DNA of 64,000 nucleotides from the NCBI RefSeq assembly GCF_014191715.1, contig NZ_JACHWY010000001.1, forward strand, positions 310,001 to 374,000, written 5' to 3'. Shown piece by piece: positions 53,183 to 57,096 of this stretch (positions within the stretch are counted from its first letter, which is position 1; each line of letters opens with the position of its first letter). The translations under genes were made by a program, and so were the position numbers. This DNA is from Litorivivens lipolytica (GTDB lineage Bacteria; Pseudomonadota; Gammaproteobacteria; Pseudomonadales; Spongiibacteraceae). Under the pieces are notes generated by a model, which saw only the letters and a list, made by a program, of their open reading frames with translations, searched no databases and was not told the DNA's origin.

Positions 53183-54694
53183 CTACGGGCTCGGCGCCAG
53201 AAATCCCGCCTCACCCGGGCCGATTGGCCAGCCCAGTCCCATCCATACCAGCAGCATAATTGCCCAGCCGACTAGAAAGGCGAGCGAGTAGGGCAGCATC
53301 ATTGCCATTAAAGTGCCGATACCCAGATCCTTGTCATAACGCTGGGCGAATGCCACGACCACACCGAAGTAAGGCATCAGGGGCGTAATGATATTGGTGC
53401 TGCTATCGCCGATGCGATAAGCCAGCTGGGTTGCCTCTGGCGAGATGCCGAGCAGATAAAGCATGGGTACAAAAATCGGTGCCAGCAGGGCCCACTTGGC
53501 CGATGCGCTACCAATAACCAGATTGATCGTGGCGCAGAGCAGGATAAAACTGATCAAAAGCGGCCCGGCAGAAAGCTCAAAGGTTGCCAGCAGGGCGGCG
53601 CCCTTGATCGCCCCAATGGCGCCGAGGCCTGACCAGGCAAAATAATTTACAAACTGCGCCGCAAAAAACATCAGCACCAAATAAGAGGCCATCGTCGCCA
53701 TAGTCTGTTCCATGCCTTCGATCCAATCGTCTGCGCGACGATAGCGACCGTTTTCGTGACCGAAGACGATACCGGCACCGGCGGCAAATACGGCAATCAG
53801 TGTGACAATGCCCGACAACAGCGGCGAACCGATCAGGCCGCCAGTTTGCTGGTTGCGCAGTAGCGCTCCCTCGGGTACGGCGGCCCATAGCAAGGCAGCA
53901 ATGAACAGTGCGCAGTAGATGCCAACCCAGCGGAAACGGGGAGCCGTTTCAGTGGTCTTGTCCTCGTTGATCTTCCCTTGCCAGCGCGGCAGCCGCGGCT
54001 CCACCCAGCGCTGGCTCACCAGCGTGCCGACCAGCGTGATCAATAGGGTCGAGGCGAGCATAAAGTAATAATTGTCACTGCTGGCAACGCTGTCTTCGGC
54101 TACCAGACGTACCGCTTCTGTCGACAGGCCCGCCAAAATGGCATCCAGAGGGCCGATCGCAAGATTGGCGCTGTAGCCCCCGGAAACGCCCGCGAACGCC
54201 GCGGCGATGCCGGCTAACGGGTGTCGCCCGGCACTGGCAAACGCCAGACCCGCCAATGGAACAAGTACCACATAACCCGAATCAGCTCCGAGGCTCGACA
54301 ATACGCCAGCGAACACAATGCTGGCGGTTAAGGCCCAGCCGCGGGCAATGCGGACAACGCGCTCCAGTAGGGCGCCGAGCAAACCGGAATGTTCGGCCAG
54401 CCCGATGCCGAGAATGGCGACGAGTACGGTTCCGACCGGGGCGAAATCGATGAAGTTGCTGACCGTATGACTGAGCATCCAGCGAATACCGTCACCCGAA
54501 ACGAGTGAGCGCGCGACCAACTCATCACCCGTTCCCGGGTGCCGGGCCGATAGTTCCAGCACCGCGCTCAAGCCGGACAGAACAATGATAAACAGGCAGA
54601 GGTAGACAAAGAGTGCTGTAGGGTGTGGCAGTCGGTTGCCGAGTTGTTCGATGCGATTCAACAGCCGCAGCAGCAGGGGTTGGGAAACGCTCAA
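53183..54694 (-). CDS. AbgT-family transporter
   Basis: This 503-residue inner-membrane protein has about 11-13 hydrophobic helices. The AbgT signature regions include LNRIEQLGNRLPHPTALFVYL, ADSGYVVLVPLAG and the substrate-site-like GDSSTNIITPLMPYF near the C-terminus. Members import p-aminobenzoyl-glutamate or export sulfonamides and antimetabolites; which applies is unclear. It is convergent with phoU, separated by 26 bases. Confidence 0.92.
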   Translation of the reverse strand: MSVSQPLLLRLLNRIEQLGNRLPHPTALFVYLCLFIIVLSGLSAVLELSARHPGTGDELVARSLVSGDGIRWMLSHTVSNFIDFAPVGTVLVAILGIGLAEHSGLLGALLERVVRIARGWALTASIVFAGVLSSLGADSGYVVLVPLAGLAFASAGRHPLAGIAAAFAGVSGGYSANLAIGPLDAILAGLSTEAVRLVAEDSVASSDNYYFMLASTLLITLVGTLVSQRWVEPRLPRWQGKINEDKTTETAPRFRWVGIYCALFIAALLWAAVPEGALLRNQQTGGLIGSPLLSGIVTLIAVFAAGAGIVFGHENGRYRRADDWIEGMEQTMATMASYLVLMFFAAQFVNYFAWSGLGAIGAIKGAALLATFELSAGPLLISFILLCATINLVIGSASAKWALLAPIFVPMLYLLGISPEATQLAYRIGDSSTNIITPLMPYFGVVVAFAQRYDKDLGIGTLMAMMLPYSLAFLVGWAIMLLVWMGLGWPIGPGEAGFLAPSP

Positions 54695-54756
54695 GTGATC
54701 ACCGCTTATTTTTCGTATCAGTCACGGGTAGTGTACCATTAGCCACTCTGAGCCCG

Positions 54757-56076
54757 ATGGCTCGGCCCTTGCAAATTGGCCCTTTCGGCCCTCGATTTTT
54801 GGAACTCCCGGTGGAAGATGCTTCTTCGGCGCGCGAATCCGCGCCCAACCTGACGACGTTGTACATTGCAATGATGACCATTGGCATGGGGCAGACCGTC
54901 GTGTTTGCGATTCTGCCGATGCTGGGCCGGGAGCTGGCACTCGACGAAATTGTTTTTTCCATACCTGCTCTGGGCTGGGAGTTCGCGCCGCGTGAAATGG
55001 CCATCACGTCGCTGTCTGCGCTGACGGCGCTAATTTTCTCTCTGGCAGCACCTTTCTGGGGGCGACTGAGTGATCGCTTTGGTCGCAAACCCATTATTAT
55101 TTTTGGCCTGGTGGGTTATACCGTCGGCACATTGACCTTCAACGGTGCCGCGCAGATCGGCTTGTCGGGTCTGATAGGCGGCGTTGCGCTCTATCTTTTA
55201 TTGTTGGTGACGCGCGTTTTTCATGCGGTAATTATGTCGGCGGCTACACCGGCGTCGTCAGCCTATGTGGTTGATGTCACGACATTGCACGACCGGGTCA
55301 AAGGTATTGGAAAACTGAATGCCTTTAATCAGGTTGGTTCGATGGTCGGGCCTGCATTGGCCTGGTTTGTGGGCATCCATTTTCTGGCGCCGATGTATTT
55401 GCAGGCGGCGATCACCTTATTCGCGGCCTTTCTGGTTTGGCGCATGCTGCCTGCAACCAGCAGCCACAAAACCCGTGACCCGAATCAGCAACGCTTAAGT
55501 TATTTCGACCCGCGGTTTCGCGGTTTTATTCTGGTGGGCTTTAGCATGTTTACCATGTTGGGCATGGTGCAGCAGACGCTGGGTTTCTACTATCAGGATA
55601 TTTTGCATTTGGAGAGCGTGCAGGCTGCAAAACTCTTCTCCATGGCCATGGTGATTTCCTCGGCGGCCATGTTGGTAGCCCAATTTGTGGTCGTACAGCG
55701 TTTCAAAGGCCTGCCGATTGGCTTGGTGAAGCTGGGATTGCCTTTTAGTCTGATTGGTTACCTGATGATCGCCAATGCGGATAGTCTTCCTTTATTGCTT
55801 TCGGCAATGCTGTTCTTTGGTTTGGGCATGGGGATGGCCGGGCCGGGCTACAGTGCCAGCGCGACGCTGGTGGTTGAATCTCATGAGCAGGGCGGGCTGG
55901 CCGGGTTGCTGGGTTCAGCCGCAGGCATGGGCTTCGTCGTGGGCCCGATCGCTGGCGGGTTTCTATATCGCTGGGATCCTAGCCTTCCTTACTGGGTTGC
56001 CAGTGGAGTGATGTTGTTCGTGATTGTGGGCGTCTGGCGCTTGTCCGGTCGACTGCGTGCGGCGGTCGCTGAATAA
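54757..56076 (+). CDS. major facilitator superfamily transporter
   Basis: This protein of about 439 residues has twelve predicted helices in two halves. The MFS loop 2-3 motif is present as GRLSDRFGRKPIII near residue 105, and the helix-5 region AATPASSAYVVDVTT is typical of drug or metabolite exporters. The start is uncertain: ATG 54757 was taken, but GTG 54810 is also plausible. The substrate is not inferable. It is divergent from the AbgT gene. Confidence 0.8.
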   Translation: MARPLQIGPFGPRFLELPVEDASSARESAPNLTTLYIAMMTIGMGQTVVFAILPMLGRELALDEIVFSIPALGWEFAPREMAITSLSALTALIFSLAAPFWGRLSDRFGRKPIIIFGLVGYTVGTLTFNGAAQIGLSGLIGGVALYLLLLVTRVFHAVIMSAATPASSAYVVDVTTLHDRVKGIGKLNAFNQVGSMVGPALAWFVGIHFLAPMYLQAAITLFAAFLVWRMLPATSSHKTRDPNQQRLSYFDPRFRGFILVGFSMFTMLGMVQQTLGFYYQDILHLESVQAAKLFSMAMVISSAAMLVAQFVVVQRFKGLPIGLVKLGLPFSLIGYLMIANADSLPLLLSAMLFFGLGMGMAGPGYSASATLVVESHEQGGLAGLLGSAAGMGFVVGPIAGGFLYRWDPSLPYWVASGVMLFVIVGVWRLSGRLRAAVAE

Positions 56077-56138: not shown

Positions 56139-56147
56139 TTATTCACG
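56139..56147 (+). promoter_or_regulatory. DnaA-box near match (TTATTCACG)
   Basis: Eight of nine positions match the TTATNCACA consensus. It lies 3 bases before a perfect box and faces the same way. Confidence 0.5.
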
Positions 56148-56150
56148 GGC

Positions 56151-56159
56151 TTATCCACA
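56151..56159 (+). promoter_or_regulatory. DnaA box 1 (TTATCCACA)
   Basis: Exact match to the strong DnaA-binding nonamer. Confidence 0.75.
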
Positions 56160-56187
56160 GGGTTGTACACTGAATCTGGGGAAAACT

Positions 56188-56196
56188 TTATCCACA
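56188..56196 (+). promoter_or_regulatory. DnaA box 2 (TTATCCACA)
   Basis: Exact match, 37 bases after box 1 and in the same orientation. Confidence 0.75.
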
Positions 56197-56352
56197 GACT
56201 CACCGCCGGATGTCCATTTGGTCATGCCAAAGACACATAACCAACAAAATTGGCCGCTTGTTTGGTAAATCGTTCACAGATTTGGTGTGTATATTCACAT
56301 TTCTGTAATCCCGTGACTTTGCTGGAAAAATGCGCAAACTGCTCAAAAAATG

Positions 56353-56361
56353 TTATCCACA
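56353..56361 (+). promoter_or_regulatory. DnaA box 3 (TTATCCACA)
   Basis: Exact match, 15 bases upstream of the likely start of the RluA-family gene. It partly overlaps a longer alternative ORF start at 56350. Confidence 0.7.
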
Positions 56362-56376
56362 AGGGGAGGGAGTGCC

Positions 56377-57096
56377 TTGTTTTCGCCCATTGCCATCGAT
56401 CCGCGCTTTGTTCTGGTAGATAAGCCGGCGGGCGTCTCGGTGCATCGTGACGACGCGAAAAGCTCCTATTTTGACGCGATACGCTGCGAGTTAGGCGGGG
56501 GCTATCTGGCGCCGGTGCACCGGCTAGACAAGGCTACCTCAGGACTCTGGCTGCTGGCGCGGACGCCCGAGGCTGCCGCCGAGCTCAGCGGGCAGTTCGC
56601 CGAGCGATCTTGCGACAAAATCTATTTAGCGTTGTCCCGGCAAAAGCCGTCGAAAAAGCAGGGACTGGTGGAAGGCGCCTTGCTTAAATCGCGCGGCGGC
56701 AACTACCGCCTGGCCAGGCAGGGCGAGCCCTGGTCGCAGACCCGTTTCTTCAGCTATGGCTTGGGTGACGGCCGGCGGCTGTTTGTACTGAAACCCCTGA
56801 CCGGGCGTACCCATCAACTGCGTGTTGTGATGAAGAGTCTGGGAGCAGCCATTCTCGGCGACGAGCGCTATGGTTCGGCTTCGGATGCGGTCGATCGCTG
56901 TTACCTGCACGCCTATGCGCTCACGTTCTCGCTGAATGGTGAGCGCTTTCGCTATACTCTGCCACCTCGGCAGGGGCAATACTTTACCGACGAGCGGGTC
57001 ATCGCCAAGCTCCAAGAGTTGGGTGATCCCACAGAACTGGCTTGGCCCGCCGGCAAAACGGAAAAAGCCCCGGCCAACAGAACAGAAGGAGAGTAA
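56377..57096 (+). CDS. RluA-family pseudouridine synthase
   Basis: This 239-residue synthase has the RluA catalytic motif HRLDKATSGLWLLA (Asp about residue 52) and PLTGRTHQLRVVMKSLGAAILGDERYG. It lacks an S4 domain. It modifies rRNA or tRNA uridines, but the target is not known. A TTG start at 56377 fits a GGGAGGGAG site just upstream; an ATG nine codons earlier would place a DnaA box inside the coding region. The next gene follows after 3 bases. Confidence 0.88.
   Translation: MFSPIAIDPRFVLVDKPAGVSVHRDDAKSSYFDAIRCELGGGYLAPVHRLDKATSGLWLLARTPEAAAELSGQFAERSCDKIYLALSRQKPSKKQGLVEGALLKSRGGNYRLARQGEPWSQTRFFSYGLGDGRRLFVLKPLTGRTHQLRVVMKSLGAAILGDERYGSASDAVDRCYLHAYALTFSLNGERFRYTLPPRQGQYFTDERVIAKLQELGDPTELAWPAGKTEKAPANRTEGE

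Follow-up and report, generated by a model that had tools for sequence, protein, structure and literature searches.

The DnaA-box cluster at 56139–56361 of the window (i.e., the whole 64,000-nucleotide stretch analyzed here) is probably a terminus-proximal, DARS1-like DnaA-reactivating site, a candidate assignment that we base on the architecture of its sequence. Its core consists of three boxes, TTATCCACA-3-TTGTACACT-5-TGGGGAAAA (56151–56185), in which the equivalents of DARS-core box III (56151–56159, + strand; an exact TTATCCACA) and box II (56163–56171, + strand; TTGTACACT, 3 bp after box III) point one way and the equivalent of box I (56177–56185, − strand; TTTTCCCCA, 5 bp after box II) faces them. 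In the open-access literature that we consulted, DARS sites are described for E. coli and its close relatives (enterobacteria, Vibrio and Shewanella), and searches there for reports from Pseudomonas or other related groups gave no relevant result. In described cores, box I has the orientation opposite to that of boxes II and III (PMC5742627; PMC8682772), with a box spacing common to DARS1 and DARS2 (PMC5742627). The gaps (3 and 5 bp) and orientations that we measured in E. coli are identical to those of the window core, both in DARS1 (TAATACACA-3-TTATCCACA-5-AGTGGATAA, the third box being the reverse complement of TTATCCACT) and in the rppH–mutH gap (TTCTTCACA-3-CTATCCACA-5-GGTGAATAA, third box the reverse complement of TTATTCACC), the latter being assigned to DARS2 on account of where it lies and of its IHF-like sites. 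The uvrB–ybhK gap, tried as the place of E. coli DARS1, proved wrong, and DARS1 was found in bioD–uvrB.

The best match of the window to this geometry has 3 mismatches, against 5–8 in 60 simulated 64-kb sequences, and when relatives were searched for the 12-bp-spaced pair of boxes, box I not being required, five of the seven other sites nonetheless carried box I at exactly 5 bp. All three boxes lie close to the consensus TT[A/T]TNCACA (mismatches: box III, none; box II, two, or one in the sister genus; box I, one). The window element further resembles E. coli DARS1 in being short and in lying between genes away from oriC, and it may, like DARS1, do without IHF and Fis. It differs from DARS1 (101 bp, bioD–uvrB intergenic region) in that its perfect box is box III and boxes I and II are weaker (box II being the weakest), in its extra boxes at 56139, 56188 and 56353, and in its neighboring genes. 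The imperfect boxes I and II, together with a position later than that of either E. coli element (see below), count against the DARS reading. The regulatory flank of a DARS is about 50 bp in DARS1 and comprises IHF and Fis sites in DARS2. Compared with E. coli DARS2 (455 bp; core in the rppH–mutH intergenic region), the window element has the same core geometry but lacks a consistent IHF site.

The cluster itself is real and beyond chance. Exact boxes, which the first-pass annotation expected by chance once per tens of kilobases, are rare in this genome (26 copies in 3.49 Mb on nine contigs; 14 for a reversed control), and the three exact copies in the window all fall in one intergenic region, where they span 211 bp; all other pairs of exact copies in the genome are at least 1.3 kb apart, so that exact-box density is highest at 56151–56361. 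Boxes with at most one mismatch number 16 in the 64-kb window against 8.45 expected. The inventory of sites, however, needs amendment. Three exact boxes and one 8/9 match had been listed; the exact copies at 56151, 56188 and 56353 stand, all on the + strand, but the site at 56139 (56139–56147, + strand, 12 bp before box III) reads TTATTCACG, a 7/9 match to TTATCCACA that becomes 8/9 only if position 5 is taken as N. Weaker matches placed near 56270 and 56291 do exist, near 56286 and 56291 (ATATACACA on the − strand and ATATTCACA on the + strand, respectively), the latter (56291–56299) being identical in G002. Absent from that list were the two most important sites, TTGTACACT at 56163 and TTTTCCCCA at 56177. 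The extra boxes are mostly genus-specific: the counterparts of 56139 in the two other genus members are TTATACACG and TTGTACACC, the exact box at 56188–56196 (+ strand, 2 bp after box I) is kept in G002 and lost in G001, and the exact box at 56353–56361 (+ strand), which either immediately precedes the RluA-like gene or forms its beginning, is kept in all three genus members.

Conservation in close relatives had been named beforehand as the check that could refute a functional reading, and the boxes are kept: of the 21 family genomes, 20 have the core. The pattern search found it in 15 sister-genus genomes, alignment showed it in the window genome and two further genus members, and synteny led to it in G015 and G019. 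Within the genus, a 38-bp block, TTATCCACAGGGTTGTRCACTGAATCTGGGGAAAACTT, is almost unchanged between flanks that can barely be aligned. Box III is identical in the 18 aligned family members and in G015 and G019, and box II varies, reading TTGTGCACT in the other two genus members and TTATTCACC (or T or G variants of it) or TTATGCACG in the sister genus, where the class B consensus (i.e., that of the window-type core) is TTATCCACA-AGC-TTATTCACC-N5-TGGGGAAAA. Across the family alignment, information content is about 2 bits per column at box positions and about 0.3 outside them, and a degenerate core pattern matched in 53 of 57 relatives (reversed control, 0); as most sister-genus sites come from this pattern, agreement at the pattern positions is partly by construction, whereas that bias does not touch the letters specific to class B, the gene order, or the two sites located through synteny alone. 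We dropped the idea of a genus-only feature when a relaxed box-geometry search found cores; a strict genus-type core (up to 3 mismatches) had returned none in the other 389 genomes of the order searched, because the letters between and within the boxes differ.

The genes beside the cluster are those named at first pass, an MFS transporter (54625–56076, + strand, taking the longest open reading frame; the left-hand syntenic neighbor in nearly all relatives) and a TIGR01621-type RluA-family pseudouridine synthase (56377–57096, + strand), which appears to head an operon that also comprises a DUF2288 protein, a 92-amino-acid open reading frame and TmcA. This setting had raised the idea that DnaA controls the promoter of the RluA/TmcA RNA-modification operon from here, and in the three genus members a box does sit at the RluA start, with the cluster within 300 bp upstream. 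The idea is weakened by the family-wide view, in which the core stays put, flanked by AbgT/MFS on one side and RluA on the other, and RluA moves. Specifically, the core follows the MFS 3′ end in 16 of 17 core-bearing sister-genus members, as it does in the genus, yet by coordinates it lies at least 2 kb from RluA in most sister-genus genomes. In the two of these examined (G015 and G019), a FimV-like gene that is absent from this place in the window genome intervenes (L206:1157–3508 and L205:178–2103, with a LysM-type motif read by eye from the sequence). In G019 the MFS gene was not found at the core's place, and the core is kept, adjoining AbgT. As the core survives both the loss of MFS and a FimV-like insertion before RluA, it must be more than a promoter element of RluA, and its varying place relative to RluA leaves it untied to any one downstream gene. 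Moreover, a promoter and terminator scan of the region found nothing, sigma-70-type matches included, and no such cluster lies upstream of the RluA orthologues from outside the family. We thus regard control of the operon as an unlikely primary role. The window-type core was not found near the RluA gene of G010, in which the second element described below is present.

The box at 56353 lies inside the RluA-like frame if translation begins at the ATG of the 56350–57096 open reading frame, and in the leader if it begins at TTG 56377. The three genus members share the stretch 56350–56361, ATGTTATCCACA, without a difference, and it is in the reading frame of the gene, so that the DnaA box may at the same time encode the first residues (M-L-S-T) of the protein. 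Two other origins for the region were considered and rejected, i.e., an RNA element (no Rfam match; fold z-score 0.05) and derivation of the core from a phage or plasmid (absent from viral contigs; plasmid matches only weak, over 33 bases).

A further proposal at first pass was a titration site or one resembling datA, at which the many boxes would sequester DnaA or, together with IHF, stimulate DnaA to hydrolyze its bound ATP. Like E. coli datA, the cluster lies outside oriC, is dense (three of its boxes being exact) and has one 12-bp-spaced pair (TTGTAAACA-3-TTATCCACA in datA), and the site is predicted to bind DnaA whatever its other role. However, datA needs IHF between its key boxes, and no IHF match (up to 1 mismatch) holds a constant position across the 18 aligned family members; the opposing box I at 5 bp, invariant here in orientation and spacing, is absent from datA (best match, 6 mismatches); and the window site lies close to the terminus, unlike E. 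coli datA, which is early. We therefore consider a titration or DnaA-inactivating role rather improbable, if less far-fetched than operon control. The DnaA-box clusters of Bacillus subtilis and Streptomyces, compared here by description only, are likewise non-origin clusters, but they are reported to lie near oriC and to be repressive (PMC4585315), in which the window cluster differs.

The last of the earlier proposals, a new or secondary replication origin, draws on the presence of multiple DnaA boxes in one intergenic region, and we find it exceedingly improbable. GC skew, sampled in 20 stretches of 10 kb, is uniformly positive from 20 kb to 600 kb of contig C1 and negative from 750 kb, so that the cluster (C1:366151) lies at no skew change; the density of GGGNAGGG sites on C1 changes at the same place as the skew. 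An exact dif core at C1:636842 is just 271 kb from the cluster, where an origin would have dif opposite it. The region also lacks an AT-rich unwinding stretch (50-bp windows reach at most 66% AT), and dnaA is on contig C3 beside rpmH, the two being separated by sequence that contains box matches and a strongly AT-rich tract (rpmH and the tract being recognized from sequence). A few kilobases from dnaA, three DnaA-box matches lie within about 170 bp (C3:529091–529260) in an apparent mnmE–mnmG gap; either the dnaA–rpmH region or this mnmE–mnmG-like gap may be the active oriC. Thus, of the datA-like, promoter and origin proposals, what survives is the kind of element, a chromosomal DnaA-regulatory site outside oriC, and its architecture is that of DARS rather than of datA.

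For a DARS, the place of the element is both familiar and displaced: it is intergenic and conserved between oriC and terminus, but later than in E. coli. With contig order inferred from skew and small contigs ignored, the cluster lies about 0.84 along the chromosome arm, vs. 0.66 for E. coli DARS1 and 0.41 for DARS2. Where a single contig holds both dnaA and dif, class B elements lie at 0.87–0.91 (G013 and G008) and those of a second class, class A, at 0.69–0.81, so that class B positions overall range over 0.84–0.91 (window genome, G008 and G013). E. coli DARS2 is reported to be less effective once relocated to the terminus (PMC5742627).

The window genome carries its own class A element outside the window, a second DARS-type core at C1:280810–280844 (TTACCCACT-GAC-TTATCCACA-GATTC-TGTGGAAAA), which follows sequence resembling the 3′ end of queD (identified as such in G001). 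Class A boxes are stronger than those of class B, and relatives that keep the window-type core usually carry a second core of this class as well. Among 20 class A loci, an IHF-consensus match lies at −98 in nine, far more often than at any other offset, and a distal box at about −177 in all 20; the E. coli rppH–mutH core has IHF-like sites at −87/−71 and a box at −185 in opposite orientation. E. coli DARS2 and the element at C1:280810–280844 thus have in common an IHF-like site upstream and a box farther away, and on the strength of this layout we describe class A as DARS2-like and class B as DARS1-like. The rppH–mutH region of E. coli MG1655 holds two core-like three-box arrangements (L132:636 and L132:952) 316 bp apart, the second being the weaker (TCTTACACC-ATG-TTATCCACA-GAAAG-CTGGGATAA).

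If the window core acts as its E. coli counterparts do, boxes I and II would be occupied by ADP-DnaA molecules in head-to-head contact, box III would assist, and the bound DnaA would release its ADP. The freed apo-DnaA would then pick up ATP, which would raise the supply of ATP-DnaA for the next initiation at oriC; binding, ADP release and the effect on initiation are all proposed here by analogy. The extra boxes at 56139, 56188 and 56353 could bring in further DnaA, and they may influence the RluA gene as well. The genome encodes Hda, the partner that inactivates DnaA.

Beyond the family, a three-box core (up to 2 mismatches) was found in 200 of 293 genomes of the order, representing 97 of 118 genera, vs. 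none for the reversed control, a count to be read with the caveat that a reversed pattern leaves the dyad formed by two facing boxes uncontrolled. We tentatively suggest, as a possibility on which we remain doubtful, that DnaA reactivation in the Spongiibacteraceae, as in many further families of the order, relies on a two-site system whose design is homologous to that of DARS1/DARS2, and that with both Spongiibacteraceae sites in the last third of the arm, reactivation capacity would double late and tie the next initiation to the near-completion of the current round. If true, resetting of DnaA by dedicated DNA sites would be a general gammaproteobacterial strategy, a generality underlain by the same 3/5-bp core in the Spongiibacteraceae (with conserved synteny and position) and in most sampled genera of the order. 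The analysis yields exact coordinates at which the proposal can be tested in non-model genomes, and it prompts one to ask why these sites lie so much nearer the terminus than in E. coli. Genomes often carry more than one core, and some cores form close pairs, e.g., those at C1:1934451 and C1:1934595 in G196.
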